64,000 bases of DNA, taken from positions 1-64,000 of the forward strand of contig JAFXTO010000025.1 in NCBI GenBank assembly GCA_017535725.1, written 5' to 3'. The translations under genes and the position numbers were made by a program. Origin of the DNA: Bacteroidaceae bacterium (GTDB lineage: Bacteria > Bacteroidota > Bacteroidia > Bacteroidales > Bacteroidaceae). This document shows, piece by piece, positions 45,807 through 64,000 of this stretch. The notes under the pieces were generated by a model, which was not told the origin of the DNA, ran no database searches, and was given only the letters and a program-made list of their open reading frames with translations. Position 1 is the stretch's first letter; each line of letters opens with the position of its first letter.

Positions 45807-45896
45807 TCGAGCAGGGAAATAATTAAGCAAGAACCACCGTACCAGCAACTCTGCATACGGTGGTTCTTTGTTTTACACCATCACCACGTTAAAGTT

Positions 45897-46019
45897 GTAT
45901 ATACGTGTTAGGAAAGTTGTATATACGTGTTGGACAAATCGTATATACGTGTTGAGCATTTCGTATATACGTGTTGGACAAGTTGTATATACGTGTTGAG
46001 CAAGTTGTATATACGTGAG
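45897..46019. repeat. Array 2 of GTATATACGTG units, 6 copies, 22-bp period
   Basis: Units start at 45897, 45919, 45941, 45963, 45985 and 46007, exactly 22 bp apart. Five end GTGTT and the last GTGAG. Linkers (9 bases) vary around GGACAAG and GAGCAAG types. The array lies between the converging GH97 and asnA genes and otherwise the 45807-46069 gap holds no gene. Unit and period are the same as in array 1. Confidence 0.9.
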
Positions 46020-46069
46020 GACGAAAACGAACGGACGTGAAGAAGAGAGTGAAATCGGCAACGTTGCCG

Positions 46070-47561: not shown

Positions 47562-47633
47562 GCGCCCATAGTTTAATGGATAGAATAGGGGATTCCGGTT
47601 CCTCTGATAAGGGTTCGATTCCCTTTGGGCGTA
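47562..47633 (+). tRNA. tRNA-Arg(CCG), complete
   Basis: 72 bases fold as a cloverleaf: acceptor GCGCCCA/TGGGCGT with A discriminator, anticodon loop TTCCGGT (anticodon CCG) and T arm AAGGG-TTCGATT-CCCTT. The D stem is weak (GTTT/AGAA) and 1-72 is a G-U pair. CCA is not encoded. It shares only the GATTCCGGTTC core with the truncated tRNA-Arg 94 bases upstream. It lies 65 bases before the integrase start, so it is probably phage-borne and may replace the broken host gene. Confidence 0.85.
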
Positions 47634-47697
47634 CTTCACTTTTGGTCACGATTTCCACTTGTGGAGGGTGAAATTTCCGCAAAAATTCCGCAAATTT

Positions 47698-48876
47698 ATG
47701 GCTACAATCACCATCGAAATCGGACGGAAAGGAAAGAAGAAAGAGAGACCTGTTTCATTCCTTATCTGTCAAGGCAAAACAAAGAAGAGAATCCCCACAG
47801 AGGTCTTCGTGACGGATTCTGAGCTGTCATCAAACGGAAAGCGTATCAAGGAACCTACAAAGGCAATGTATATCGAGAAGATGCGCCGCACGTTAGAGGA
47901 CAGACTAATGCAGCTCTCCCTCGAACTTGTAGGCAGGGATGTAGATGCCAGCTTCATCGTTGAGCGTCTTACAGCCCACAGCGGCGAAGTGGACTTTTTC
48001 ACCTTTGCCGATGAATGGATGCAGACCACCCGCACGACGTGCCTAAAGAACTACCGCACGATGCTCAATGCACTGGAAGCGTACAGAGGCAGTCGCTCGC
48101 TCCCGTTTTCAAGTATCAGCTACTCTTTCTTGAAGGGCTTTGAAGTACACCTCAAAGATAAGCCGCGCGCGCAATCCATGTACCTTGGTCTCATACGTCA
48201 CCTATACAGGGAGGCAATGAGGCGATATAACACCGACTATGAGCAGGTAATCAGTAATGACCCGTTCATGCGCTACAAAGTGCCGCGCCAGCAGTTGAAG
48301 AAAGGTGTGCGCGCCCTTTCCCTCGAACAATTCCTAAAGGTCTATAACTACCAAGGTACACCATGCAGCCGCGCCCAGCTCGCGCGCGATACCTTTATAT
48401 TATCATTCTGTCTCATGGGGATGAACTCAGTGGATATGTACGATTGTGCGGACTGCAAGGGTGGTGTCATTCGATACAACAGGGCAAAGACCAAGGGGAG
48501 GCGCAGCGATGAGGCTTATATTGAGGTTAGAATCCATCCTTTCCTCCAGCCGCTGATGAAGAAATACAGCGACACCGAGCGCGTTTTCAACTTTCATCGC
48601 CGATTCTCCATGTATGAGACGTTCAATTCCAGCATCAATCACGGCTTGAAGGATATTGGCAAAGCCGTGGGGATAGAAGGCTTGCAGTTCTACCAAGCCC
48701 GACACACGTTTGCAACACTCTCCCGCAATCTGATGAAGTTCTCCAAGAGTGACGTAGATGAAGCCTTGAACCATGTCGGCACGATGGATATTGCAGACGT
48801 GTACATCGCAAAGGATTTCTCCATCATCAACGAGAACAATGCCAAGCTCATTGAAAGGGTCTTTGGACTGGAATAG
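47698..48876 (+). CDS. Tyrosine recombinase (phage integrase)
   Basis: 392 residues from MATITIEIGRKGKKKERPVS; the frame is open 13 codons further up without support. The N-terminal SAM-like domain (about 90-180) precedes the catalytic domain with YQARHTFATLSRN (Arg-His pair), HVGTMDIADVYI (late His and the nucleophile Tyr) and the beta-hairpin Lys in RAKTKGRR. The first catalytic Arg position reads GMNSVDMYD, with Asn, as in some Bacteroidetes integrases. It would catalyse integration at the tRNA-Arg core next to it. Confidence 0.9.
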   Translation: MATITIEIGRKGKKKERPVSFLICQGKTKKRIPTEVFVTDSELSSNGKRIKEPTKAMYIEKMRRTLEDRLMQLSLELVGRDVDASFIVERLTAHSGEVDFFTFADEWMQTTRTTCLKNYRTMLNALEAYRGSRSLPFSSISYSFLKGFEVHLKDKPRAQSMYLGLIRHLYREAMRRYNTDYEQVISNDPFMRYKVPRQQLKKGVRALSLEQFLKVYNYQGTPCSRAQLARDTFILSFCLMGMNSVDMYDCADCKGGVIRYNRAKTKGRRSDEAYIEVRIHPFLQPLMKKYSDTERVFNFHRRFSMYETFNSSINHGLKDIGKAVGIEGLQFYQARHTFATLSRNLMKFSKSDVDEALNHVGTMDIADVYIAKDFSIINENNAKLIERVFGLE

Positions 48877-48927: not shown

Positions 48928-49437
48928 TTACCACTTATGAACTATTTTGAGAGAGAGTAGAACGAGCAGGAGGATGAACAACCCCATGAACCACATAGCG
49001 GATTTCAGCTTGAACTTCTGGAAGACGGTAAGCTCTTTCTCCTTGGGAACGATGACGGGTATTGAGTCGTGAATGGTCACGGTGTCGGCCTTTAGTTGTT
49101 CGAGGCGTGAAATCTCGCGCTCCAGTTCCTTCGACTTTATGAGCCATGCCTTTTCAGCAGTGGCGAGCTTGATGCCGTATTGTGCCATAGCTTCTGAATC
49201 CACCTGCATGACCACCGTCTCTTTCTCATGGAACACAGAATCGACCTGCTTCACTGAGTCGATGGTATGGACGTATTCGGTGTGTACGGTCTCAACTGGC
49301 ACATACTGCGTCTTGCAGGATGTGAACAACAGCGCGAGGATGAGCGCACAAGCAATATAGAACGGCGTGCCACAGCCGCCATTACTCTGCATCAACTCCA
49401 TGCGGATGATACAATCACGGATTTCTTCGTCTGTCAT
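48928..49437 (-). CDS. Spanin-like lysis protein (possible unimolecular spanin)
   Basis: 169 residues from MTDEEIRDCIIRMELM, whose ATG overlaps the stop of the DUF5675 gene by 4 bases. A hydrophobic stretch ends in a lipobox-like LLFTSC (near residue 41). A periplasmic part follows (VDSVFHEKETVVMQVDSEAM, ELEREISRLEQLKADT, coiled coil), and a C-terminal membrane span (SAMWFMGLFILLLVLLSL). Lipoprotein at one end and inner-membrane span at the other is the layout of u-spanins, which join the two membranes in the last step of phage lysis. The charged residues ahead of the first hydrophobic stretch are unusual for a signal peptide. Confidence 0.65.
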   Translation of the reverse strand: MTDEEIRDCIIRMELMQSNGGCGTPFYIACALILALLFTSCKTQYVPVETVHTEYVHTIDSVKQVDSVFHEKETVVMQVDSEAMAQYGIKLATAEKAWLIKSKELEREISRLEQLKADTVTIHDSIPVIVPKEKELTVFQKFKLKSAMWFMGLFILLLVLLSLKIVHKW

Positions 49438-49874
49438 ACTATTAGAATATAGACGCTCTCCTTCTTGCGTCTTGCTGGTTCGAGATATTTCTGCCAAAGC
49501 ATCTTATATGTCGCTATTGAGTCTGTGACCTTACCGACAACGGTATTCTTCCCGACTAACAGACAACCATAAGTGTCGGCAGCTGTGTTGCCGCAATGAA
49601 TACGCACGCCCTCGAACTGAGGAACGTCACAGATGAGCGGAACGATGCCGTTTGCGAGGCTCTTATACGGCTCTTTCTTGCCGAACTTCGGCGAATATGT
49701 GAACGCCACGCGATAGCCTCCCGACGGGATGGCCGTCTTGCCATAGACCTTACCCTCTCCGAAATGGAAGCGGTCTCTGTCCTCGATTGTGTCACAGACA
49801 TATACCCCATCGACATACAGATGCCCAATGGTATATTCACCCTTGCGGGCTATTCTTTTCACTTTTAGCTCCAT
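49434..49874 (-). CDS. DUF5675 family phage protein
   Basis: 146 residues. YTIGHLYVDGVYVCDTIEDR, KTAIPSGGYRVAFTYSPKF and VRIHCGNTAADTYGCLLVG are the conserved blocks of DUF5675, with a His and a Cys spaced as in L,D-transpeptidase-like folds. It lies between the holin and the spanin-like gene, where an endolysin is expected, so a role in cell-wall attack is likely but unproved. Confidence 0.75.
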   Translation of the reverse strand: MELKVKRIARKGEYTIGHLYVDGVYVCDTIEDRDRFHFGEGKVYGKTAIPSGGYRVAFTYSPKFGKKEPYKSLANGIVPLICDVPQFEGVRIHCGNTAADTYGCLLVGKNTVVGKVTDSIATYKMLWQKYLEPARRKKESVYILIV

Positions 49875-50307: not shown

Positions 50308-50640
50308 TCACTTCAAGCTTTCAAGAACCTCTTTCGCCTTGCTTTTTGCCATAGCCCTCCATTCTTTGAGCTGGGCAAACTTATTCTTATGCTCGGTGGT
50401 CTTGGATTCCATGTAGTTGAGCTGGATAGCCTCTACTTCGTCGGAAGAGAATTTAGCTCGGATGATGGCTGAAACTATTGCGCCGTAGTCATCTTCACTG
50501 ATGGGGTTCTCGGTTGCGATGGTGACGCTTTCCACGTCAAAACCACCTTCAACCTCTTCAATCTGATAGTTAATCGTCGTGTGATAGCCGTTCTTGGTCT
50601 TTGTCACAGACATAAGGGATGGTTTTTCTTCGTAAATCAT
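50308..50640 (-). CDS. Small phage protein of unknown function
   Basis: 110 residues, soluble and acidic in the middle (VESVTIATENPISEDDYGAI), with a Lys-rich helical end (KAKEVLESLK). The start overlaps the stop of the reverse transcriptase gene by 4 bases, so it is translated with the DGR genes. I do not recognise the family; a link to the DGR is only positional. Confidence 0.7.
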   Translation of the reverse strand: MIYEEKPSLMSVTKTKNGYHTTINYQIEEVEGGFDVESVTIATENPISEDDYGAIVSAIIRAKFSSDEVEAIQLNYMESKTTEHKNKFAQLKEWRAMAKSKAKEVLESLK

Positions 50641-52148
50641 AATGCTTGATATAATTCTAATTCGCGATATTTGTTTTTCGCTCTGATACTCTCATAGTGA
50701 CCACGGATGAAGAAATACTTGAAGAACTCGCCTCCGAACTTGTCAAGTATCTCTTTCCGTCGCTTATAGGTACGTTTGCCCTTGCAGAATCCAAGGTAAG
50801 AATTGACAACTTGCTCGATGCGCTTGCAATCCAGCTCGTTCAACGCCCTTTCCTCCATCATCCTGTTAAATCCGACAATGCGCTCTTCAAAGCGTGCGAG
50901 CGTGCGATTAGAAAGGTAGATTCTATTTGGCTTTATGTAGCTCCCAACAAGTGCAACGCCATGACTGGCTGGCTGGATATACCTCTTGTCCTTGTGCAAT
51001 GTCAACTTCAAGGACTCATCCAAGAACCTCTCTATTTTCGGAATAGCGGAAAGCAGAAACTTCTTATCATTACAGACGATGCAGAAATCATCTACGAATC
51101 GCACGTAAGAAAATCCCCTTCCACGGAACATAAACATGATGTACTGGTCGAAGAATGACATCAAGAAGTTTGCAAAGAGCTGGGTCGTGAGATTGCCGAT
51201 TGGCTCGCCTTTGTCCTTGCTGCACCCGAAGAGAGATTTGTTTGGCGGTAGCCCCCTCCAAAGTGCGGGGTCTGAGTTAAGAACACAATCCTCTTCGGGG
51301 TGGTGCATAACGATGGCCTTGGTGGTTCTTTGCAGAATATCCCAATACATAGGGAGCTGTAATATCGCACCCCGCGCCTCTCTCTTTCGCCAACGGATAA
51401 TGAACCGCTCCAAGAGATACCAAAGCAGATGTTTGTCGATACTCATAAAGAACCCAACCAAGTCACCCTTGAATATCCATGCGGGTCTCTGATAGCCTCC
51501 CGTGACCTCTTTCATTCCGGCGGCGCAATGTTCGACGCATTTCTGCGTACCGTACCCCTTGCGGCAGTTGAAGGACACGTCACCCTGCGCCATAAAGCGC
51601 ATCTCAAACAGCGGCTCCAGCCTCAGACACACCCAGTGATGGACTATCCTGTCTCTGAAATTGGCTGCAAAGACCTCTCTCAGCTTGGGATATTTAACAA
51701 GAAAGCAAGTGGAGGTGGACGGCTTGTAAATGCCAGCCCACAGCTCCCATGCAAGTGAAGGAAGGTCTGCCCATGCTATCTGCATATACTCGATAGCTTG
51801 CGAAGATGACATCTTCCCTCTCATGCAACCCCTGTAAGCGTCATGCACTCCTTGGAAGAAATCTACAAAAGAACGGTCATCTTCTGCGTGAATGGGGAGG
51901 CCGATGAAGTCGTACTTAAATCCGTCATGTGCTGCCACTGGCCGAACAACGTTACTGTTGTACTTGTTGTTGTTGTTGACGTTACCAGAGCCAAAATTCA
52001 CGTTCCATGCGTTGTTGCTGTTGTACTCAGTAACACTCCAGTAGTTGCTATTTTCCTGCGATTTTGCAACATCGTAACTACGACGGGGGAGAATCCCCAT
52101 CGTAGTAAATCGCCCATTTAACGGATTATGTAGCACTCTGTCAGTCAT
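50637..52148 (-). CDS. DGR reverse transcriptase with the template repeat inside its coding frame
   Basis: 503 residues from MTDRVLHNPLNGRFTTMGIL, five bases after the Avd-like gene's stop. Residues 33-73 are encoded by the template repeat (YWSVTEYNSNNAWNV and onward). The polymerase part has motif A FKGDLVGFFMSID (226-238), the DGR-type KGEPIGNLTTQLFAN (313-327) in place of the retroviral SQG box, and the catalytic FVDD (351-354). A maturase-like Lys/Arg-rich end follows. The enzyme copies the TR RNA with errors at adenines and the cDNA replaces the VR. The 4-base overlap couples it to the next gene. Confidence 0.93.
   Translation of the reverse strand: MTDRVLHNPLNGRFTTMGILPRRSYDVAKSQENSNYWSVTEYNSNNAWNVNFGSGNVNNNNKYNSNVVRPVAAHDGFKYDFIGLPIHAEDDRSFVDFFQGVHDAYRGCMRGKMSSSQAIEYMQIAWADLPSLAWELWAGIYKPSTSTCFLVKYPKLREVFAANFRDRIVHHWVCLRLEPLFEMRFMAQGDVSFNCRKGYGTQKCVEHCAAGMKEVTGGYQRPAWIFKGDLVGFFMSIDKHLLWYLLERFIIRWRKREARGAILQLPMYWDILQRTTKAIVMHHPEEDCVLNSDPALWRGLPPNKSLFGCSKDKGEPIGNLTTQLFANFLMSFFDQYIMFMFRGRGFSYVRFVDDFCIVCNDKKFLLSAIPKIERFLDESLKLTLHKDKRYIQPASHGVALVGSYIKPNRIYLSNRTLARFEERIVGFNRMMEERALNELDCKRIEQVVNSYLGFCKGKRTYKRRKEILDKFGGEFFKYFFIRGHYESIRAKNKYRELELYQAL
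51930..52053 (-). repeat. DGR template repeat (TR), 124 bp
   Basis: Aligns without gaps to the VR at 52771-52894 with 15 mismatches. On the coding strand 14 are TR adenines, all within its 12 AAC codons: AAC becomes TAC six times, CTC twice, and GGC, GAC and AGC once each; one stays AAC. One mismatch (51949) is a coding T. This is the signature of adenine-specific mutagenic retrohoming. Confidence 0.95.
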
Positions 52149-52152
52149 ATTT

Positions 52153-52596
52153 CTACGATTTGACACCCTCGCCACTTGTGTAATCGCGCCACGCCACAAG
52201 CTGCGCGATTATCTTCTTCACCAACGCCTTTGCCTTGTTGTCGAGGTCTTTGCTTGGCATTACCTCCAGTTTGCGAAGCGTCGTGAAGTCATCGCTCACA
52301 TCCTGCATCAGTACGCGGGCGCACTCCAAATACCACACCCTATCTGTCGGGTTGCGCGAAATGTCGGCCATGCCGATGGATTTCTTCAACTCCGACACCG
52401 TGGCAAGCATCTGGTCATAGAACTTCGTGAGTTTCCTTGGGCTGTCAGCCAGCAGAGCCGTCACGATGTACTTTAGATTTGCAGCATCCCTATATACGGG
52501 AAGTTGAGCCAATGTTTTCTTAGACTTCATCTTTTTGGTGTTGCTGTCCTCTATCGTCGAGGGAGGAATGACAACACCCACATTTTCCGTTTGCAT
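52153..52596 (-). CDS. avd: Avd-like DGR accessory protein (four-helix bundle)
   Basis: 147 residues. After a flexible N-terminus, KTLAQLPVYRDAANLKYIVT begins four amphipathic helices like those of Avd and the 23S-rRNA intervening-sequence proteins (LPVY start, basic helix faces, RVWYLECARVLMQDV). Avd forms a pentamer that binds the reverse transcriptase and the TR RNA. It lies between the VR gene and the TR, the usual place. A second ATG at residue 23 is possible. Confidence 0.8.
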   Translation of the reverse strand: MQTENVGVVIPPSTIEDSNTKKMKSKKTLAQLPVYRDAANLKYIVTALLADSPRKLTKFYDQMLATVSELKKSIGMADISRNPTDRVWYLECARVLMQDVSDDFTTLRKLEVMPSKDLDNKAKALVKKIIAQLVAWRDYTSGEGVKS

Positions 52597-52712
52597 ATCT
52601 TGCTTTCTTTTTCCATTCTGCGATGAGCTGTCCGTCGGATTCTGTTATCGTCAGAACAAGCTCACCGCAATAATAATGTTCTTGTTTCAATGTTTGTTAT
52701 CTCTTGGGAGGC

Positions 52713-52730
52713 CGCGCGTTGAAACGCGCG
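52713..52730. promoter_or_regulatory. Second GC-rich hairpin/cruciform downstream of the VR
   Basis: CGCGCGTT (52713-52720) and AACGCGCG (52723-52730) form an 8-bp perfect inverted repeat around GA. It lies about 40 bases beyond the VR. Hairpins at this place guide target recognition in the Bordetella phage DGR. No such structure follows the TR. The 52597-52712 stretch otherwise holds nothing clear. Confidence 0.65.
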
Positions 52731-52748
52731 ACCGAAGGTGAAAGGTGA

Positions 52749-52762
52749 CGCGCTAAAGCGCG
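52749..52762. promoter_or_regulatory. First GC-rich hairpin/cruciform, containing the target gene's stop codon
   Basis: CGCGCTAAAGCGCG forms a 6-bp stem with a two-base loop (or 5 bp with four), eight bases beyond the VR. The target gene's TAG is within it. Confidence 0.6.
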
Positions 52763-55700
52763 AAGTTAAATGCTGCCACTGGCCGAACAGCGCTACTGTA
52801 GTACTTGTCGTTGAGGTAGACGTAACCAGAGCCAAAATTCACGAGCCATGCGTAGTAGCTGCCGTACTCAGTAACACTCCAGTAGTAGCTATTTGAGGGA
52901 ATGGCGAATGGCGACCCCGCGTTTTCAACCCGTGCGATGCGTGCAAGGAGGTTAGCGAACAGCGGAAGCAATGCCTCGCTTTGTGGAGCCTCGTTTGCGT
53001 TAGCTGCCGTGCATCGGCCACCACTATCATACGTCACCCGACCACAGCTGTTATAATAGAAGTTGTAGATTCGGGAGAGCAAGCCAGCCGACGGAAGCAA
53101 CCATTTTCCACGGGCATACTGCGGGCTGATAGTCTCATCCTCCGCACTCGCTGGCTCATACAGATGACAGGCGTAGGTGGCTGGGTAGTATAGTTGTCGG
53201 TAGCGCGACGGGGCTGATACTCCTTGGGCGGTCATCGCGGCGACAAGTGCCTGCATTGCATTTGCAAGCTCCGTCGGTGTCGTTGGGTAGGATTCATCGA
53301 GGTAGCCGCTGATGATAGCATTGGCGTGACGGATGACAATATCATTCTTGCTCTCGGTTGCAAAGTCATTGCAAGCCCCGCCAGTCAGAACGGCATAGCC
53401 GTCCTCTTGGTTTGAATCGAGGAAGGTGTTACGGATATATCGGTAGTCCTTGTTTGTTGCATCACTTGGGCTTGTCAATCCCGACGTGGTGATATTGGTC
53501 ATCGCCGTATCTACTGCGCTGGATAGCTCTGCGGCATCGCGGATTTCGTTTGTCACCGAAGCGGGGAATCCGTTTGATGCAGCCTCTTCGGGATAGATAC
53601 CCCAAACGTGAGAGCTGGTATTATATGTTCCGTCGCTACTTCTGCATACCGCATTTTCTTTGGCATAGACCCACAGCTTGTATTCGGTCTCGGAAACTTG
53701 CTCTTTCTTGACAACCGTTCCCGCCAAGGTCTTTGACTTGTCGTATTCGTCATCAAAAGTGCCGTCGATGTACGCGAAATCTCCCACCTTCGGGATTCGG
53801 TTGTAGAAACCTACCTTTTTATCCATCGTTACTGATGTGCCGTCTATAAGCCCAATCGTCACGCGGATGGTGAATCGCAGGTCGATGGCTGAGTCTGACA
53901 GCCTCTTGACGTTCACGTAACCCTTCACGGCGTTTGTGAACTCCGCATAGGTGCTGACCACGTTGGAATTTTCGCCTACAAACGCCCATGTAATATCCTC
54001 ATGTCCGTTTACAATGGCGACGTTGTTTCCCGTCGTGGGCTGTGCATTGATAACCCAATCCCTAAACTCCCCAAGCGTCTTGATATACTTCAAGCCTCGG
54101 ATGTTAAACGTATTGATAGAGCGTTTCGGGTAGTCGATATAGAGGGCGTTTTGCTGGCTCTGTATGTTGCCAAACTGGTCTATGAGGCCGACAACCTCCC
54201 TAAAGGTGAGATAACGGTCATTGGCAGCTGGAAGCATGGCGATGGAACCTGTCAGCGTGCATGAGGCTACATTTGTGAGGAAGGTGAGCATATCGGCACG
54301 GATTCCCGTCCAGCTAATACCCGTGAAGCTTACAGATGTAAGCGGCGCGCCTCCCTCTGTTTTCTCCAAATAGATATTTGTCGCGAGCTGGCCAGTGTCA
54401 AGCGTTCCCGCCCTGCTCTGGTCAACCTCAACCCTCGTTAGAAGGTCTGCGCCGTCCAATGTGAGCGTTTCGAGGTTCGGCTGGTTGTTGACCACAAGCT
54501 CGGATAGCGTAGATGGCATGGCCACGGATTCCAAACTCTCGGATGCTGGCAGCTCAACGATGGAGAATGTAGAGCCTCGGAGGTCAACGTTTTCAAGTCG
54601 CGTACACTTGGAGATGTTGAACGCGCCGCCCACGGTCGAGACCTTGCGGACGATAAGCTCCTTGATGTTGATGGCGTTTGATACCACGATGCTCGTTGCA
54701 AGGAATCTGTTTTCATCCGTGCCGTCCTCATTGATGGTGATACGTTGCAGCCTCTTGCCGGACAGCGAGAATGTGCCTTGTTCTGAGGAAAGGCCAATGT
54801 TCATGTCGCCGATGTCAAGGTAGTAGTCAATGCCGCGCACGGAAATCCAAGAGTCTGACGAGAGGGTTATTGCTGGGTAGTTGATTTGTGTGCCAGCTGG
54901 AACGCGCACGCGCTTACCTCCCGCGCTTGCAGGATAGTTGCCCGAATCAGAACCGACGCGAGGATATAGCCACTTCGCGGGTGTCAGCTTGAAGTTATAC
55001 GTCGCTCCGTTCTTTCCGCGCCATGACATACCATTCGGGGCGGTAGAAGAGCCAGCAAACTCACCGTACTCGCACCATGAAGAGATATACATGATACGGT
55101 CTTTGAGCCATTGGTATTCACTCCACCTCTGAGAGCCGCAAGATTGGGTGATAGCCTGTACGGAATCGTTCTTATAATCACCTGCGGCCTGTGCCACGGC
55201 TGCGGCCTCATAGACAAGGCGGGCTTGCTCGTTGTAGGCAATGGCGGGGAAATAGTCTTGTGTCGAGAGGAAATATCTCTCATGGAAAGCCATGACAGAG
55301 CCTCCCAGCTGCGCCATACCCGTCATCATGTTGTTCATCATCGTGGTCATCTCGGTCTCAAAAGCCTCTTCAAGAACATTGTAGAAGCCCGATTCCTCAC
55401 CCTGCCAGTAGAAATCACCAGCGGCGTTGATGTCGTGCTCTTCCACGTAGTAGGGCTTGCGGTTCTGTCCTACGTTGTTGGTCTTGATGGTCGTGTCGAG
55501 GTCATCGGCAACGAAGCGAATTTTCAAAGTTTCGGGGTCGGTGTAGTAGTAGGTATTCTTGGCTCTGTTGTCAGTGCCTCCGTAGAACTTGATGAAGCAG
55601 GAGTGATACAGGGCATCGTCGATATGAATATACTCGCTGGCCTTTGCCTTGAAGTGCGCGCGGCGCATGGCGATTATCATTTCATTGGTTGCTGCCCATT

Positions 55701-58700
55701 GGCCTTGCGTCCATGTCTGAGGTGTTGCACTTGTCTCGGAGCAGAAAGTTTCGTACTGCGCGCGCAGGTTCAGCGTCTCATAGTTTCCGCTGGAAATCTT
55801 GCCTACACCAGCATTGACCCAGTTCTGCGTGAGTTCGTCGTAACGGTAGAGGTCGTAACGGCTACTCCCCAAATTGCTATCGTCTTGCGTGACCCAATAA
55901 AGGCCGGATGTCGATACGCTCTCACTTCTTCTCAGCTCGGAGAGTGTGCCATTGAAGGGCTGCACCCTTGAATGGTGAAGGTAGGCAAAGTTAAAGAAAG
56001 CCTTTTGCGCATTGATGGCAGCTGTGGATGACGGGTATTCCTTGTTATTGGACTTTGTTGTCGTGCCAAATCCGAAGTTGAGCTGCTTCTGTCCGTTGTA
56101 CATCCATGCCTCATCGTCGGGTGAATAGGTGATGTCATCGTTCCACGGAATACGGAAGAGTGCCAGCGGGCGGTCGTTGTTCGCGCCCTCAACCATCAGC
56201 ATATTAGGGGTGGTGTTCTTGTTGAATCCGAATGTCGGCTTGTCGCCCTTGCCAGCTCCGAAGGTCATAAGGTACTTGAACGTCCACGGGTCTTCCTCTG
56301 TCTCGCGATGGAAGAAGAGGAACGGCTTTTCAAGGACGGAGATTCGAGAGTTCGGGTAGGTTGTCATCTGCGATGGCCTTGTGATGACTCCGTTAGAGAC
56401 AAGACGCTTGAAGAGGTCTGTATATATCCACGTAAGACCGAGCTTGTGCGACTGCATACCCGAAGCGAAGTTGATTTTACCAACCAGCTTCTTTGCAAGA
56501 TACTCCCCTGCTTGGATGGCATAACCAGCACCCGCCTCGCCAGCCACGCCCTCATCGGGGGTGAAAACGCTGTCATCGGTGGTCTTGTACTGCTGATTCC
56601 AGTCTCGATATGTCATGGCGGTGGTTCCCTGTCCCTTTGATTCCAGCTCTGTCAACGTGCCGCTATGAGTGGGGTCGCCGACAATGTTCACATAGATAGA
56701 CACACCTTCGGACGTACCCTTGTTTTCATCTCCATATTTCGGGAGGTGGCCAGTGTGGCCGATGAGGTTGTACTTGCCCAAGCACTTCGTAAAGCTTATC
56801 TCTTCGTTATCACCAAGAATGTCGTTTTTGTCGGCAAACTCAACCTTCTCGGAAACGCTGCTCATGCTGGCCTTGTAGTCCTGCATGACTTCGGCGGTTG
56901 ACAGGGCTTTCTTGTAGCACCTAATGCCGAAGATGTCGATGTCGCTCGAAGAGTTACCAATGACAATATGCACATTCGGCTCCGTGAAGCGGTCGTTGGA
57001 TTCGTAGTTGAACTCACGTTCTATCTTGCCGTCAAGGAAGATGCGGACGTAGTTAAGACCTTGGAGGCCATAGACGATATTCACGGCCAAATGAGTGCGC
57101 ACACCTTCTGCCCAGCTTACATTCTGGTCATCGGTGGTTCTCATGCGTTGCGTGAGGAAGCGAGCCTCCAGTGGCAGCATCTCGAAGCCCCAAATCTTGC
57201 CATCGCTATGGTATGTGCCGAATGTCAAGATAGGCTCTTCTTCATCGAGGATGTTGTTTGTGCGGAAATCAACCTCAAAAGTCATCGAGCGACCTGTGTT
57301 GTTTCCGTCGGTAAGCTCGGAACACGGGTTATACGTCCAGTCCGTTTGTCGGCCTGCTGGCACATGGAAGGCGCGCACCTTCTCAGCGTTGGCAGATGTT
57401 GAGTCCACATCCTTATTCACGTCGATGAAGCCGTCTGTGGTGAAGCCGAATCCATCAAACTCCGCTTCTATCTCTTGCCCGTTGGCATTGTTGATAATGC
57501 GCCGTGGGTTGGTTTCGCCGTTGCTTCTGTTTGATGGGAGGAATACGAAATCTGCACCCGCTGTCGGCTGGTTGTCGGCAGAATTAGAGAATACAAAGAA
57601 GATGGGGTCTGCAAGCTCGTTGCCCTCGTTGTCTTCGATGTGCATATAGCCGTAGAACTCCGTGAGTGCGCTGTTTTCCAGCTCTATGCCAAGCTGAACG
57701 CCGAAGAGGTATTTTGTGCTATTCTCGGCGGTGAAAGACCATGATGCGTATGTGTCTTCATTGTCCTCATCCGTCAAACGGAAGTTTACGCCCATCGTAG
57801 GCGCGCCGCCCGCGTAAGCTGCCCAATCGAAAAACTTGACCTCAGTCCAGTTGGCAAGGTTGCCATGCACGTCATTCACCACGACGTGAGGCGTTGCGGG
57901 AGCTGTCTTTACCACCATGTACTGACTCTCTATCCAGTCGGTCTTAACGTCCTCAGAGACATACAGGCGTGCGCGGACGGTATGCACTCCGTCGGACATG
58001 ATGGATTGAAGCATCGTAGAGTCGGTAAACTCAAACGTCATACCTGTGGAGGTGTTCGTGCTGGTGCCAAGGGCGCGCGAACAACCTACATCGTTATTCT
58101 GGTAGGAGAATTGGGGTATGAATGAGCTGCCAAGCCCCGTGCCAAACTCGAATTGAAGTGTTTTCGCGACCGAACCGCCGACGAGGTAATTGAGCGATAT
58201 AGATTCCCCCGTCATTGGCAGTTCGAGCGCGGTATTGGGTGCTAAGGACAGATTCACGACGTTAAGAGTGAAAGACCTCCATACGCTCGATGAGTATTCA
58301 CCCACGGCGCGGATGCGGACGTAGTTTGTGCCAGCGTAGAGGTAGTTCTTCAGTGAAATCTCGGTGAAGTTGGTATCGTTGGCCACGATGACCGTCTCTC
58401 CCCTGTTCGTCCATGAAGCGGATGGGCTTGTACGGGTCTGCACCTGCACCACCAAATCCTCGATGATGTTCTCTGAACCTCCAGCGGCATAGATGACGGA
58501 CGATGTACCTTTGACATTGAGCTTAACGTCGTTTGTCGGCTGGATGGTTGATGGTGTTGTTTGCAGGATTAAGGTGACGGTATATGTATCGCTGCCCTCT
58601 GCGGAAGGTAGCGTGTCATAGGTGACGATATACTGCTGGCCAGTCGCACCCCATTTGTCAGAGTCAGACAATGACCTCCATGTGTTATAATCGTCCTCAT

Positions 58701-58854
58701 CCTTGAAGCCGATAACGACATTCGCCGTGCCGTCTGCGTTCTGAGCGGTACGGACACAGCCGACGCGCTCGCCAAAAGTCTCCTTTATGAACTCTTCTAT
58801 TTCGAGGCCAGTGTGATTCTCCCACGCCTCAGATAAATTTCTTATTGCTGCCAT
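52753..58854 (-). CDS. Large phage tail protein, target of the DGR
   Basis: 2033 residues. The N-terminal 100 residues (NLSEAWENHTGLEIEEFIKE) look like a virion attachment part, followed by beta-sandwich repeats to about 500. A LamG/concanavalin-like domain (about 520-670) holds GKIWGFEMLPLEARF and RIFLDGKIEREF. An LRR-like stretch (ELPASESLESVAMPSTLSEL type) lies near 1430. The last 150 residues form a C-type-lectin-like (DUF1566/FGE-type) domain with KWLLPSAGLLSRIYNFYYNS, ending in the VR at residues 1987-2028. It is probably the receptor-binding tail fibre or tip, whose Tyr-rich binding surface is changed by the DGR. It lies 3 bases after a 58-residue gene. Confidence 0.88.
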   Translation of the reverse strand: MAAIRNLSEAWENHTGLEIEEFIKETFGERVGCVRTAQNADGTANVVIGFKDEDDYNTWRSLSDSDKWGATGQQYIVTYDTLPSAEGSDTYTVTLILQTTPSTIQPTNDVKLNVKGTSSVIYAAGGSENIIEDLVVQVQTRTSPSASWTNRGETVIVANDTNFTEISLKNYLYAGTNYVRIRAVGEYSSSVWRSFTLNVVNLSLAPNTALELPMTGESISLNYLVGGSVAKTLQFEFGTGLGSSFIPQFSYQNNDVGCSRALGTSTNTSTGMTFEFTDSTMLQSIMSDGVHTVRARLYVSEDVKTDWIESQYMVVKTAPATPHVVVNDVHGNLANWTEVKFFDWAAYAGGAPTMGVNFRLTDEDNEDTYASWSFTAENSTKYLFGVQLGIELENSALTEFYGYMHIEDNEGNELADPIFFVFSNSADNQPTAGADFVFLPSNRSNGETNPRRIINNANGQEIEAEFDGFGFTTDGFIDVNKDVDSTSANAEKVRAFHVPAGRQTDWTYNPCSELTDGNNTGRSMTFEVDFRTNNILDEEEPILTFGTYHSDGKIWGFEMLPLEARFLTQRMRTTDDQNVSWAEGVRTHLAVNIVYGLQGLNYVRIFLDGKIEREFNYESNDRFTEPNVHIVIGNSSSDIDIFGIRCYKKALSTAEVMQDYKASMSSVSEKVEFADKNDILGDNEEISFTKCLGKYNLIGHTGHLPKYGDENKGTSEGVSIYVNIVGDPTHSGTLTELESKGQGTTAMTYRDWNQQYKTTDDSVFTPDEGVAGEAGAGYAIQAGEYLAKKLVGKINFASGMQSHKLGLTWIYTDLFKRLVSNGVITRPSQMTTYPNSRISVLEKPFLFFHRETEEDPWTFKYLMTFGAGKGDKPTFGFNKNTTPNMLMVEGANNDRPLALFRIPWNDDITYSPDDEAWMYNGQKQLNFGFGTTTKSNNKEYPSSTAAINAQKAFFNFAYLHHSRVQPFNGTLSELRRSESVSTSGLYWVTQDDSNLGSSRYDLYRYDELTQNWVNAGVGKISSGNYETLNLRAQYETFCSETSATPQTWTQGQWAATNEMIIAMRRAHFKAKASEYIHIDDALYHSCFIKFYGGTDNRAKNTYYYTDPETLKIRFVADDLDTTIKTNNVGQNRKPYYVEEHDINAAGDFYWQGEESGFYNVLEEAFETEMTTMMNNMMTGMAQLGGSVMAFHERYFLSTQDYFPAIAYNEQARLVYEAAAVAQAAGDYKNDSVQAITQSCGSQRWSEYQWLKDRIMYISSWCEYGEFAGSSTAPNGMSWRGKNGATYNFKLTPAKWLYPRVGSDSGNYPASAGGKRVRVPAGTQINYPAITLSSDSWISVRGIDYYLDIGDMNIGLSSEQGTFSLSGKRLQRITINEDGTDENRFLATSIVVSNAINIKELIVRKVSTVGGAFNISKCTRLENVDLRGSTFSIVELPASESLESVAMPSTLSELVVNNQPNLETLTLDGADLLTRVEVDQSRAGTLDTGQLATNIYLEKTEGGAPLTSVSFTGISWTGIRADMLTFLTNVASCTLTGSIAMLPAANDRYLTFREVVGLIDQFGNIQSQQNALYIDYPKRSINTFNIRGLKYIKTLGEFRDWVINAQPTTGNNVAIVNGHEDITWAFVGENSNVVSTYAEFTNAVKGYVNVKRLSDSAIDLRFTIRVTIGLIDGTSVTMDKKVGFYNRIPKVGDFAYIDGTFDDEYDKSKTLAGTVVKKEQVSETEYKLWVYAKENAVCRSSDGTYNTSSHVWGIYPEEAASNGFPASVTNEIRDAAELSSAVDTAMTNITTSGLTSPSDATNKDYRYIRNTFLDSNQEDGYAVLTGGACNDFATESKNDIVIRHANAIISGYLDESYPTTPTELANAMQALVAAMTAQGVSAPSRYRQLYYPATYACHLYEPASAEDETISPQYARGKWLLPSAGLLSRIYNFYYNSCGRVTYDSGGRCTAANANEAPQSEALLPLFANLLARIARVENAGSPFAIPSNSYYWSVTEYGSYYAWLVNFGSGYVYLNDKYYSSAVRPVAAFNFAL
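52771..52894 (-). repeat. DGR variable repeat (VR), 124 bp
   Basis: Encodes SYYWSVTEYGSYYAWLV and onward at the C-terminus of the tail protein. It differs from the TR almost only at TR adenines. Its last 19 coding bases (52789-52771), rich in G and C, are identical to the TR and are the likely initiation-of-homing site, followed by the two hairpins. Confidence 0.95.
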
Positions 58855-59952: not shown

Positions 59953-62900
59953 TTAGGATAATAAATCTTGCCAGCTTTTATGTTTGGTTTGGCCGCTTGC
60001 GGTAAACGTTATTCCGTCTTGCGCGTCTATATTCAACGCCGTGTTTTTTGTATTCATGTACAACGATGCCACACGCTGCAATCCATCGGGGTCTGTCTCA
60101 AACTGAATCTTAAACAGGTCGATAATAGATGCCCCTTGTGCTGGTAGCTGGTGGTTTTCGTCTTGCACTCCGTTAGGGCCTCGCATTTTGATATAACCAT
60201 TGCCAGCATCTACGATGATGGAATTTTGCGTCGTTGTATTCACGGACTCAAACACGCCATTTATTGATGCGTTTGTCGTGTGAAGCGTTCCTGTTGTCGG
60301 GTCAATCCATATCTTACCACTTACCGAACCGTCAGAACTTTCAAACGTCACCTTGTCGGCTCTCAGCTTGATTTTTCCAGCCGTGATGTCAATGCCAGTC
60401 TTTAGGAGGTTGTTCTTTGACATGATTTCGACAATCTGCGGACAGACACCACCGAGGACGATGCCGACGGCATAGACTCTCCATGTTCCCATCGCGTGAC
60501 AGACACCAATAGTCGAGCCTAACGCACTGCTCATCTTCTTTGTGGCATAGTACTTGCGCCAACCGTCGCCAAGGTCGATATATGGGGATGTCAGAGTGTC
60601 AACGACAATCTGCGTGCCGGAACTATCATACCCGAAACACAGACGGACGTGTGCATTGTTCCCGTTGTTGTCCGTGACGTATGCCTCCGTGCTTGCGGAT
60701 ATACACTTGCAAATCATGTAGAATGTGGCATGATTACCCGTTAGGAGTGAATAGTTATCGCGACGGGTGAATTTTATCTGCCAGCATCCATTTACATTGT
60801 GAGACAGTTGTACGACCTTCCCGAAAACGCCATCCGTGACCTCCGTAGATGTGATGTGCTGGTCATCTATTGTGCCACTGACTGCCAGCGGGTTCACGAT
60901 GAAGTTATCGAGGTCTCTGCCATCGGCCTCTTCTGCCGTCCAGTTTGTCGCAATCTCTCCCTCTTCAACCTTATACCAAAGAACGGTGACGGGGTAGGTG
61001 CGTGTGCCACCGCTGCCGTTTGAGCCGTTAGAGATAGCGGTATCGTAGAGGTAGCTTGTGATGTAATACGTTCCCGTCCTGTTGGCGGTGAATGATACGC
61101 TGCCAGTTGCCGCATTTCCACCGTTGGCCGATATGTCAACGTGTACTTCCTGCGCCCATCGAGAACCCCAATCAGAGCTAACATTTGTGTCGCCGCTATC
61201 CATCAGTCTGAACAGATACACCCTCAGCTTCATGGCAGACGGCAGAGATGTTGGCGTGATTCCGCTTACGGAGAATGTGTATTTCTTGCCGTTTTCGAGC
61301 CGTAATGAGCGGTGCGCAAAGCCATAATCCGTGCTCGTCTCGTTGATGATGGAATTTTGAAGGAGGTTCGGATTGTAGGCGGCATTGGCAACGGCGAGGC
61401 TGATTCTGTCATTGCCAGTGAGGTTCACTTGGTCAGCGTCAATGGTTACGCCGCTTACTATCTTCCCATTGCTGTCCTTTTGGACGTAAGCCGAAAGATA
61501 TGCCTGTGCGATTGTCCTTCCCTGCTGGTCTGTGGCTGTCGCAAAGTTCTGAACAAGGTTGCCAGTCGTAATCATCCCAGCCGTGGAAGTGTAATCGCCA
61601 GCGGACTTCATCGCCAGTGCTCGCACGTAACCTTTCAGATTCTCAATGAGGCTGTGCGCTGACTCCTGCAACACCTCCCAATCCGTACCGTTGTACATCT
61701 GAATCTGAATACCACCTTCTACGGTGCGATATTCGCTGTCTGACGGGAGATTTGTATCGGTAAATGTGATGGGCGAACATACAAGGTCGTAAAGATTTGC
61801 CGTAATGCTTGGACGGGAGCGGAATATGCGTATTGTGTACTCGCCGATAGCTTCATACACAGATTGTAAGGCCATGCGCATATTCTCATCCGTAACGGCC
61901 TGCCATGAACCCGAAACATACCGCTTGATGCCATTTGTCGGAGTGTATGAAATATCACCCTCCAAAATCACTGAGAGAGTGCTGGTGCCATAGATAGTGA
62001 GGTATGCGTTTGTACCCTTGTTCTTGATGGTGTTCTTGCAATCAGCATTGTCATAGACCATGTTAGCCAGCGCAGCAAGCAGGATGCGCGGGTCTCTTTT
62101 CTCCGTGATGTCCGAAAGGTCTGCCCAATCGCTCAGTTGACCGTTTCCCGTTGAGCGTCCAGTGACACAAACCATCATGTTATTGCCATTGTTGGTCTGC
62201 ATCCACAAATCGCCTCTCTTGTAAGGAGGTGTCGGCACACTACTTTGAACAAAGAAATTCACCTTGCTCGAAGACATCAGCGAGAGAATCCCAGCACGCT
62301 CATAGTAGAAATTCTGCCAGTCGTTTTTGAAAACTACGCTGCTTATGGTCGTGTTCCCGCTTGCAGCCAGCGCGGTAGGTGTCCTATTATCGGGGAAGGT
62401 ATTAGTGTTTGAGCTTTCCGATGTCGGGTCATCCAAGTACCAGCTTAGAACGTTGTACGCTCTTTCATAGTCCGCTGTACTGATATGGGCATCTATCGCA
62501 TTGGCCAATATGATTTCTTTCTCAGATGTGATATTCTCCCACTCGCGCAGTACATTCAGCTTCTCAAAAGGAGTCAGAACACCGTCATCCGCAAAGTCTG
62601 ACAGCTGACCAAGTGCATTAGTCGCATCTTCCTGTGCGTCATCTGCCCTGTTCTTTGCATCCTCGGAAAGCAGCGTCAACACCTCAACCCTCGCGGCGTA
62701 GAACGCGCCCCAAAGACCTCGGAATGTCTCGCTGTTGATGTTCTCCGTGTTGGAAATATTACTACTTGTCAGCCATGACGGTATGATAGTATTTAGATAT
62801 GTGCTTATTGCCGACGGTGGCCACGTCTTCGTGCCGTTTGGCCATTGTGTGCCTCCGTTGAGGTAGGTAAACAAATCCTCAGCCGCACTTTTGTATGTCG

Positions 62901-64000
62901 CCATGCTTACGCCAGCCGTCGTGCATTTGCTTTGGATTTTGTAGTATTCATGGACTATTGCAGTGAAATCCGAAAGGAGGTCAAGTTTTTCGCTTGGGTC
63001 GAGCTTGCCGTCATTGGCCATGTCGCTGATTTTACCGAGCGCGGTGGTGGCATCGGCCTGCGCTGCATCCGCTAAGTCCTTGGCCTTTTTCGTGATGACC
63101 TCTAACAAGGCGGTGAGTGCCGTCTGATAGGCGTTCCATACGGAATGATACGTCGAGCTGTTGGCCGTCGGCGTGTCAGCCAGCACGGTATCGGTATTCA
63201 TGTTTGCCGCCGTGAGCCATGCGGGGCGGGCTACACCGTTCAAGATGTCATTCGATATGGTGGCCGTGGTGTCATTTGGATTGCCGTTGTTGAGCATGAC
63301 GGCCAATTTCTTATAAGCCGCTACAAGGGCATCGTCCTGTGTGTTCGTGCTCCCGAAATAATCGCTTGCCTGTTCGATGTATTTCTTATATTCGGCGATG
63401 GTTTTAAGCCAGTCGATATACAGAAGCGATTTCTCAGAGCCAGCACTGATTACTCCATCGGAAACAATATCGTCGATTCTGTCATGGGCATTGTCTGCCG
63501 TGGATTGTGCCTTGTCCGTGAGTGCCGTCAGTACAGCCGTGCGGGTGGCGTAGAACTCTGCCCAAAGATTCCTCCATGTGCCGCCCGCGATGGTCTGCGT
63601 GTTGCCCATATTGGCATCCTTAATCCATGCGGGAAGTGTGGAATCTCCAAAGTTGGCCAGTGTCGGCTCAGTCCATGAAGTGCCGCCATTGAGATATGTG
63701 CCAATGGCACGGAAAGCGGTTATATACGGCTCTATCCATACGCTGTATGTGATAATCCAGCTATTGCCGTCTTTGGCCATGTCGAGGATTCCCGACGCAT
63801 AGCCATCCGAATCGGTGTCCATCATTTCATGGTATGCCGCGATGAACTCCCTCTTTACGGTCAACTTCTCGCTTGGGTCAAGCTTGCCGTCATTGGCCAT
63901 GTCGCTGATTTTACCGAGCGCGGTGGTGGCATCGGCCTGCGCTGCATCCGCTAAGTCCTTGGCACATTTTGTTATCTTCTTCAAGAGAGCTGCCAGCGCG
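59953..64000 (-). CDS. Large phage tail/tip protein with helical repeats (5' end beyond the window)
   Basis: At least 1349 codons; the frame is open past the right edge (a TTG at 63984 is not the true start, since the repeat ALAALLKKITKCAKDLADAA continues upstream). The visible N-terminal part has three or four helical repeats of about 290 residues with the phrase ADATTALGKISDMANDGKLD, two copies of which are almost identical in DNA 879 bp apart. The C-terminal half has beta domains (galactose-binding-like NLLQNSIINETSTDYGFAHR region) and ends ITFTASGQTKHKSWQDLL. It is likely a tail-tip or baseplate protein that presents the DGR-varied protein. Confidence 0.8.
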   Translation of the reverse strand, partial: ALAALLKKITKCAKDLADAAQADATTALGKISDMANDGKLDPSEKLTVKREFIAAYHEMMDTDSDGYASGILDMAKDGNSWIITYSVWIEPYITAFRAIGTYLNGGTSWTEPTLANFGDSTLPAWIKDANMGNTQTIAGGTWRNLWAEFYATRTAVLTALTDKAQSTADNAHDRIDDIVSDGVISAGSEKSLLYIDWLKTIAEYKKYIEQASDYFGSTNTQDDALVAAYKKLAVMLNNGNPNDTTATISNDILNGVARPAWLTAANMNTDTVLADTPTANSSTYHSVWNAYQTALTALLEVITKKAKDLADAAQADATTALGKISDMANDGKLDPSEKLDLLSDFTAIVHEYYKIQSKCTTAGVSMATYKSAAEDLFTYLNGGTQWPNGTKTWPPSAISTYLNTIIPSWLTSSNISNTENINSETFRGLWGAFYAARVEVLTLLSEDAKNRADDAQEDATNALGQLSDFADDGVLTPFEKLNVLREWENITSEKEIILANAIDAHISTADYERAYNVLSWYLDDPTSESSNTNTFPDNRTPTALAASGNTTISSVVFKNDWQNFYYERAGILSLMSSSKVNFFVQSSVPTPPYKRGDLWMQTNNGNNMMVCVTGRSTGNGQLSDWADLSDITEKRDPRILLAALANMVYDNADCKNTIKNKGTNAYLTIYGTSTLSVILEGDISYTPTNGIKRYVSGSWQAVTDENMRMALQSVYEAIGEYTIRIFRSRPSITANLYDLVCSPITFTDTNLPSDSEYRTVEGGIQIQMYNGTDWEVLQESAHSLIENLKGYVRALAMKSAGDYTSTAGMITTGNLVQNFATATDQQGRTIAQAYLSAYVQKDSNGKIVSGVTIDADQVNLTGNDRISLAVANAAYNPNLLQNSIINETSTDYGFAHRSLRLENGKKYTFSVSGITPTSLPSAMKLRVYLFRLMDSGDTNVSSDWGSRWAQEVHVDISANGGNAATGSVSFTANRTGTYYITSYLYDTAISNGSNGSGGTRTYPVTVLWYKVEEGEIATNWTAEEADGRDLDNFIVNPLAVSGTIDDQHITSTEVTDGVFGKVVQLSHNVNGCWQIKFTRRDNYSLLTGNHATFYMICKCISASTEAYVTDNNGNNAHVRLCFGYDSSGTQIVVDTLTSPYIDLGDGWRKYYATKKMSSALGSTIGVCHAMGTWRVYAVGIVLGGVCPQIVEIMSKNNLLKTGIDITAGKIKLRADKVTFESSDGSVSGKIWIDPTTGTLHTTNASINGVFESVNTTTQNSIIVDAGNGYIKMRGPNGVQDENHQLPAQGASIIDLFKIQFETDPDGLQRVASLYMNTKNTALNIDAQDGITFTASGQTKHKSWQDLLS
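63001..63967. repeat. Near-identical direct repeat inside the tail-tip gene
   Basis: About 90 bp near 62990-63084 recurs near 63869-63963, offset 879 bp (293 codons). It encodes the LADAAQADATTALGKISDMA phrase. Confidence 0.75.

Follow-up and report, generated by a model that had tools for sequence, protein, structure and literature searches.

How does the reverse transcriptase (RT) of a diversity-generating retroelement (DGR) define the start and end of its template when that template lies inside the RT gene itself? As far as the literature that we found shows, this has been worked out in one phage, BPP-1, and the question is raised by a DGR in the 64,000-nucleotide stretch analysed here (the window; positions given on its whole contig carry the prefix C33). 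We consider it probable that this is a phage-borne DGR with two targets, in which an RNA element 5' of the template repeat (TR) stops reverse transcription and perhaps docks RT and the accessory protein Avd.

The TR (51930..52053, minus strand) aligns with the first variable repeat (VR1, 52771..52894, minus strand) without gaps across 124 nt (52053..51930 against 52894..52771), as an earlier note on this DNA had claimed, and 14 of the 15 mismatched sites fall on TR adenines, all 14 within AAC codons; 11 of the 12 AAC codons are altered (counted from the codon list). Adenines make up 44 of the 124 TR bases, and the hypergeometric P for this concentration is 1.2e-6. A second variable repeat, VR2, lies beyond the window at C33:89405-89528, 37 kb from the DGR, where it forms the end of a 225-amino-acid (aa) protein in the early gene region; all 14 of its mismatches are at TR adenines (12/12 without two edge columns), and it was detected with BLAST, an adenine-favouring scorer having missed it. 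These near-repeats, with mismatches on TR adenines in 14/15 cases for VR1 and 14/14 for VR2, bear out the identification as a DGR. An adenine-favouring scorer, applied to 17 locus pairs, placed 192 of 199 mismatches at A after removal of duplicates (L088 and L086, duplicates of L059 and L075, were dropped and two pairs gave no result). A hairpin/cruciform downstream of the VR, a BPP-1-type feature, is present behind both VR1 and VR2. The one behind VR1 is GC-rich (52710..52733, minus strand; z of -3.57 for the stretch 52700-52775), and fold analysis gives a second small hairpin that spans the tail gene stop codon (52749..52762, minus strand). By eye, the loops behind the VRs are not of the GRNA type that PMC3240598 names for DGR hairpins.

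The DGR sits on a prophage of about 56 kb that extends beyond the window, and the prophage origin proposed earlier holds: an att-like direct repeat at 47673..47694 (plus strand) has a partner at C33:103434-103455 (20 of 22 bases identical) about 55.8 kb away, the two marking the prophage ends, and a tyrosine integrase gene (47698..48876, plus strand) has a Phage_int_SAM_5 domain match. The repeat was recovered by a mismatch-tolerant search; the sole match of an exact 14-base search was rejected as chance. The tRNA-Arg(ccg) gene found by ARAGORN at 47562..47634 (plus strand) adjoins the integrase gene, and this is likely the attachment neighbourhood. Target 1, the predicted 2033-aa open reading frame (ORF) with VR1 at its C-terminus, was found at 52753..58854 (minus strand) adjoining tail genes, and upstream of it lies part of a 2497-aa ORF (59953..64000, minus strand) that leaves the window and reaches as far as C33:67446. 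The match of the VR-bearing target to the C-type-lectin-related domain Lcl_C is weak (E 1.1e-4; 22.9 bits, where the cut-off is 34.9), and the two Lcl_C scores, E 1.1e-4 and 2.7e-4, both lie beneath the curated cut-off. By likeness to BPP-1 and to the Bacteroides uniformis phages described in PMC8143477, it is plausible that the DGR alters host receptor use. The earlier single-target reading is supported as to a DGR with a target by the tail genes, but lacked the template RNA element and the second target, which lies outside the DNA that it covered.

The RT ORF (50637..52148, minus strand) is full length and contains both motifs reported in the earlier note, IGNLTTQ and FVDD; the former has T for S relative to the canonical (I/V/L)GxxxSQ, a substitution common to close kin. 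Sequence comparison relates the protein to known DGR RTs, and among solved structures it is closest to a reverse transcriptase of 328 aa, the 8ub7 series (E 2.5e-23). The ATG of the RT ORF at 52148 lies 4 nt past the stop codon of the gene called Avd-like at first (52153..52596, minus strand). That assignment gains profile-profile support from hhalign (probability 97.5, E 5e-12, against a set including BPP-1 and Bacuni Avd), although the gene has no Pfam, NCBIfam or PHROGs match, and we treat it as a divergent Avd candidate; set A5, behind this call, has six members named Avd by position alone. It does not match PF22296, whereas BPP-1 Bbp7 and Bacuni Avd both do, and its profile matched none of the solved structures (best E 0.058). 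The window TR is inside the RT ORF and in its frame, as it is in 31 of 40 loci examined (L052 yielded no ORF). This layout was rejected as a novel trait, since TR overlap with the RT ORF already defines DiGReF structural group 3 in the account given in PMC3521204, and the window DGR has it too. The RNA element and TR together occupy about the first 73 RT codons, so that the template is a stretch of the RT message itself.

The RNA element (52058..52113, minus strand) lies between the RT start and the TR, beginning 35 nt past the RT start codon, and consists of two helices, P1 (52113-52107/52064-52058) and P2 (52106-52098/52085-52077), with a near-invariant 12-nt 3' bulge (52076-52065). The arms of both helices covary strongly, and RNAalifold recovers the element unaided. 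Pairing is found in 94.9% of alignment cells against 79.3% in shuffled versions (0/500), and slid versions give 28-50%. When each locus was tested with its own P1 arm, 20 of the 23 loci had a partner of at least 6 bp (18 of 19 distinct arms; mean 4.9 and maximum 13 in 100,000 permutations, with L021 lacking an anchor and that of L012 misplaced). Synonymous identity is 0.76 (to 0.82) in the leader and 0.72 in the TR, falling to 0.52 in the RT and 0.45 just 3' of the TR, where it is not raised. Among windows of the RT ORF without overlap with the leader, none folds more stably than -4.7, against -18.4. When the P1/P2 plan was searched for automatically, 18 of the 25 leaders outscored all but 0-2 of their 40 shuffles and the other seven (L014, L015, L019, L027, L031, L033 and L035) did not; single-sequence z-scores are mixed, from -4.81 in the window to +0.11 in L039. 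Model R1 locates the element just 5' of the TR in five loci outside its building set and, with E<=0.011, just upstream of the RT in 16 of 80 loci from genomes, with one false site among 399 genomes (L181, E 0.0087). Models R1 and R2 gave no match at the leaders of L015, L018, L021, L023 and L031, though pairing is visible there, and none in BPP-1. Alignments A7 and A10 were adjusted to fit the model, L016 was omitted for figures identical to those of L015, and L049 was omitted from the 11-row tests. An Rfam search of 51600-52950 gave no match at E<=1, and we found no description of a 5' TR leader structure in the open-licence PMC literature. Locus L099 was rejected as a case of the element without RT fusion; its leader, TR and RT start share a frame, which changes later in the RT.

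From the position of the RNA element alone we infer that it is a stop of reverse transcription, perhaps also a docking site. It may instead be the main scaffold for RT-Avd binding and priming, standing in on the 5' side for the BPP-1 spacer, and not a stop, a possibility that we hold only tentatively and whose probability overlaps that of the preferred reading, which allows docking too. A conserved local fold was looked for and not found on the 3' side of the TR, at the BPP-1 spacer position (sliding RNAalifold energy 0.0), the near-invariant bulge resembles a binding site, and BPP-1, with z-scores of -2.47 on the 3' side against -1.3 on the 5' side, is the reverse of the window, with -3.63 (5') against +0.55 (3'); but cDNA must begin at the TR 3' end, 124 nt from the element, and a priming adenine was not identified. 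Some individual 3' flanks fold too (L012 and L017, for example), and RNAalifold run from the avd end to past the TR also gives a few long-range pairs. Rather unlikely, in our judgement, is a role chiefly in controlling RT translation, through structure of the start region or avd-RT coupling, with no part in reverse transcription. Such control would suit an element so near the start codon of a gene that begins 4 nt after avd, but against it stands the position of the element's 3' end: in 20 of 23 loci, TR/VR homology begins 1-10 nt away from it (L015 and L035 were left out of this count, and the helix arms of L014, L019 and L033 were placed by hand). Where the distance between P1 and the first TR codons changes, the homology start shifts along with P1.

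Mutagenic homing, in which the VR changes and the TR does not, is seen only in relatives: phage L023 differs from L024, L025 and L036 at 12 VR positions, 10 of them at TR adenines, with the TR unchanged and with 0 or 1 difference in 8.9 kb outside the VR. No near-identical phage was found for a strain-level VR comparison with the window, its RT relatives being at most 73% identical. A decayed DGR, its variation old and inactive at present, would fit the single non-A mismatch in VR1, but the full-length RT ORF with FVDD, VR2 mismatches that are all at A and the variation in L023 make it improbable. The idea that the DGR is of ordinary BPP-1 type and the leader an N-terminal RT segment conserved as protein is very improbable and already contradicted because the helix arms covary; an LNGRxT-like peptide does recur, and TR and leader are open and in frame with the RT in those 31 of 40 loci, but leader amino acid identity is just 0.54-0.62 against synonymous identity of 0.76-0.82.

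Under the preferred two-target reading, and by analogy with DGR biology, RT and Avd would make a cDNA copy of the TR, starting at its 3' end and misreading adenines, and the cDNA would replace VR1 in the 2033-aa tail-region protein and VR2 in the 225-aa early-region protein, with help from the hairpins that follow them. At the TR 5' edge, the RNA element would halt reverse transcription and may dock RT-Avd, thereby taking roles given in BPP-1 to the avd end and the spacer 3' of the TR. BPP-1 (AY029185) shares the order of VR at a tail protein C-terminus, bbp7 (Avd), TR and RT, together with adenine-specific TR/VR differences and, as PMC3240598 describes, a hairpin behind the VR. Its TR, however, lies between bbp7 and brt and not inside the RT ORF, the structured spacer described in PMC12875486 is 3' of the TR where the window fold is 5', and the remote second target is a feature of the window DGR. 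We offer as speculation, and regard as doubtful, the wider proposal of a Bacteroidales-phage DGR clade with a mirror-image template RNA: with the structured element 5' of the TR inside RT coding sequence, one RNA would be both message and template, translation would compete with reverse transcription, and the DGR would also diversify a conserved, signal-less early target that may act inside the infected cell, for example against variable host defences, and not on the virion. The element at the TR 5' edge in this clade is compact, covaries strongly and lies within a message that has to be translated as well.

A small remote relative was seen in 11 of 16 viral records; one follow-up analysis covered 9 of the 16, picked from the 11 that show a small remote ORF, and when the remote target served as query in a scan of viruses, one split contig was the sole find. 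This recurring early-region target raises the question of whether phage DGRs diversify anything besides adhesins. The Bacuni phages F1, F2 and F4 of B. uniformis also have two targets, one of them remote, in the description of PMC8143477; the remote one (224 aa, among replication genes) is 31% identical to target 2, both VRs vary between isolates, and the TR is in a small ORF directly before the RT. Unlike in the window, that ORF is separate from the RT and the near target has 253 aa. The RNA element was not found there by model (E 9.3 at the spot) and was rejected, a similar stem pattern being visible by eye alone. In the two-target gut phages nd4 and nd12, as PMC10743442 presents them, a single TR likewise serves two proteins, the second of which is again small, a lectin-like protein of one domain (234-294 aa); the other target is described as a tentaclin with Ig-like domains and not a protein of about 2000 aa, and the account assigns the two to a single cassette. 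Bacteroides phage BS-TP1 (PQ571274), for which our literature search found no paper, has a 2187-aa protein related to target 1 (28.9% over 99%), a four-helix-bundle gene, an RT with the TR inside it, the RNA element (E 1.5e-7) and a remote target, gp76, all 11 of whose mismatches are at TR adenines. It differs in being a 111-kb record from sewage with host B. salyersiae BG8, in an RT 44% identical to that of the window and in having the remote target on the opposite strand. BS-TP1, whose host strain is named, carries both the RNA element and the remote second target.

The DGR in the window is read from the minus strand, where the first target gene (58854..52753) encodes a 2033 amino acid protein with VR1 at its end (52894..52771), a small accessory protein gene occupies 52596..52153, and the TR (52053..51930) is followed by the RT. 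Realignment bears out the earlier note's claim that the two repeats match without gaps over 124 nt and that 14 of the 15 mismatches are at TR adenines, each of these 14 within an AAC codon; with adenine at 44 of the 124 TR bases the hypergeometric probability is 1.2e-6. The RT motifs IGNLTTQ and FVDD that it named are also present, and the best solved relative of the RT is the 328 amino acid reverse transcriptase of the 8ub7 series (E 2.5e-23), which we take to be complexes from the Bordetella phage BPP-1. In profile comparison the accessory gene product comes out as a candidate Avd of divergent sequence. Hairpins lie 3' of both VRs (z -3.57 and -4.10; the second VR is described below) and behind the VRs of many relatives. 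The DGR is real and probably works. Within the 2033 amino acid target, weak matches under the cut-off were seen to CotH kinase (residues 1039–1140, E 6.7e-4) and leucine-rich repeats (residues 1400–1469, E 0.012).

Four viral contigs, separate IMG/VR entries, are identical across 8.9 kb around the TR, apart from the VR and a single base elsewhere. One of them, L023, differs from each of the other three at 12 VR positions, 10 of them at TR adenines, at 0 or 1 position elsewhere and at none in the TR. The published Bacteroides uniformis (Bacuni) phages likewise show differences mainly in their VRs (PMC8143477). According to the same paper, the RT of Bacuni F2 (L050) has 19 extra residues relative to that of F1; we find them beginning near residue 86.

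A search with the TR stretch against the host genome (2.9 Mb, 72 contigs, 76% complete) found three places: the TR itself, VR1 and a third copy about 37 kb away at C33:89405-89526 on the same contig. In register this copy, VR2, spans C33:89405-89528 and has 14 mismatches to the TR over 124 positions, every one at a TR adenine; the first two are at the edge of homology. It forms the end of a 225 amino acid ORF (C33:89393-90070). Genes recognised around this ORF encode an HNH nuclease, an N6/N4 DNA methylase, a DNA helicase and a RecE-like exonuclease, and they place the second target in an early/replication region away from the tail genes. The ORF has no strongly hydrophobic stretch (top 19-residue hydropathy 1.05), and inspection by eye found no signal peptide.

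The RT start codon (ATG at 52148) is 4 nt past the avd stop, so ribosomes likely pass across the RT leader, the stretch before the TR, and the TR itself, and both are likely translated as part of the RT. Among 11 related RT ORFs, synonymous third-position identity is 0.76 in the leader and 0.72 in the TR. The RT body has 0.52 (Mann-Whitney against leader and TR, respectively, 5.5e-6 and 4.7e-6), and the value directly past the TR 3' end is 0.45; leader amino acid identity is only 0.54–0.62. An RNA fold is the likely cause of the leader conservation. It has two helices, P1 (52113-52107 with 52064-52058) enclosing P2 (52106-52098 with 52085-52077), and an almost invariant 12 nt 3' bulge. In the 11 sequences 94.9% of cells pair versus 79.3% when shuffled, and the covariation score is 0.542 versus 0.215 (0 of 500 shuffles reach either); sliding the partner columns by 1–3 lowers pairing to 28–50%. 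Unaided RNAalifold recovers the fold, with double changes in 8 of 17 pairs, and along the RT ORF it scores the leader at -18.4 and non-overlapping windows at -4.7 or weaker; from the avd end to beyond the TR it also draws a few long-range pairs. Single-sequence folding is uneven, z ranging from -4.81 (window) to +0.11 (L039) among nine sequences.

An RNA model (R1) built from the 11 sequences was run on 34 sources (544 kb, window included) and matched the window and then sites directly 5' of the TR in L049, L029, L019, L020 and L022 (E≤0.007), plus a site away from the TR in L023 (E 0.83). On 80 named-genome loci it gave 16 matches at E≤0.011, all 16 immediately upstream of the RT match, at least three being the same phages as building rows; the next, at E about 0.5, were L152 (elsewhere) and L116 (in the expected place). 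On 399 whole family genomes it gave five matches at E≤0.01, our own genome counted, four at such an RT and one at an unrelated gene. In alignments fitted to the model, double changes occur in 13 of 16 pairs over 18 rows (0 of 500 shuffles) and in 14 of 16 over 26 rows. A second model adds L116, L033, L028, L114, L017, L108 and L027 (E≤0.004) and, more weakly, L109, L110 and L112; it has no match in 24 of the 34 sources, including BPP-1, Bacuni and clade members L015, L018, L021, L023 and L031. When 25 leaders were searched automatically for the two-helix arrangement, 18 beat all but 0–2 of 40 shuffles and seven failed. In an alignment-free test, where the seven bases following an anchor (AATGG, AACGG or TATGG) must find a partner of at least six pairs, 20 of 23 loci found one in their own leader versus 21% for arms of other loci; among distinct arms 18 of 19 succeed (100,000 permutations: mean 4.9, maximum 13). 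Rfam gave no match at E≤1, and searches of open-licence PMC papers turned up no earlier description of a conserved RNA structure in this place, inside the RT and 5' of the TR. Bacuni F1 (L048 35188-35330) has AAAUGGGC and nested stems ahead of its TR in a different reading frame, unconfirmed by the model.

TR/VR homology starts 1–10 nt past the P1 end in 20 of 23 loci (4 nt in the window); in the exceptions the distance is 13 nt, 40 nt, or the VR is cut by the contig end. The distance between P1 and the first TR codons ranges from 19 to 38 nt, and the homology start shifts along with P1. Since reverse transcription proceeds toward the TR 5' side, the element is positioned where copying must stop. 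PMC12875486 says that in BPP-1 reverse transcription stops at a motif at the avd end and that the spacer 3' of the TR recruits and primes it. This position and precedent suggest that the element would end reverse transcription at the TR 5' edge; perhaps it serves for docking as well. In BPP-1 folding is stronger 3' of the TR (z -2.47) than 5' (-1.3), whereas the window is opposite (5' -3.63, 3' +0.55), and 20 relatives are mixed.

A viral-contig scan with the window RT gave 28 loci; among 139 genomes of the genus, an RT match is present in nine, our own counted. The TR is within the RT ORF in 31 of 40 loci (window counted; several rows, such as L023/24/25/36, are copies of one phage), outside it in four and not found in four, and one locus lacks an ORF with both motifs. 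A remote-target search matched in 16 of 22 genomes or records; among 16 viral records it found a small separate ORF in 11, the RT or large protein alone in three and nothing in two. A search for the Lcl_C domain covered nine of those 11 and two genomes, and each of the nine has exactly three Lcl_C places: an ORF of 1924–2258 amino acids, the RT ORF (476–543) and a small ORF (145–430). When the remote VRs of 13 loci are each set against the TR of the same locus, 192 of 199 mismatches (two duplicate rows removed) fall on TR adenines, which is supportive only, as the scorer favours A mismatches. TRs overlapping the RT (PMC3521204), multiple targets (PMC6642488, PMC10743442) and remote targets (PMC8143477, PMC8144416) are already described in published work. 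One genome, G036 (L038, L046, L058, L070), carries two DGRs of this kind together with two remote targets, and its two TRs pair with different targets; its L046 (G036:C71) has one TGA within the RT match. L099 has an intact leader and TR and then a frame change inside the RT, and L034 8623-9962 is a more distant DGR with two closely spaced VRs before a TR outside the RT. The DGRs L106 and L107 are equal in RT length and leader score; a Muribaculaceae genome holds one of them and the other is on a contig assigned to Candidatus Saccharibacteria, probably through misbinning.

A tRNA-Arg gene (47562-47634) with the integrase next to it, a 22 bp repeat at 47673-47694 and C33:103434-103455 (20 of 22 bases identical) and a G+C shift (per 2.5 kb, 0.54–0.58 outside and mostly 0.42–0.54 inside) mark the ends of a prophage of about 55.8 kb. 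The window covers its left 16 kb; a recognised major head protein and tail protein family lie farther right. The short gene cluster separating integrase and RT includes a DUF5675 protein (49434-49874, E 9e-27), perhaps lysis-related. Directly outside the prophage, tandem copies of a 22-base unit (core GTATATACGTG) lie at 45875-46039.
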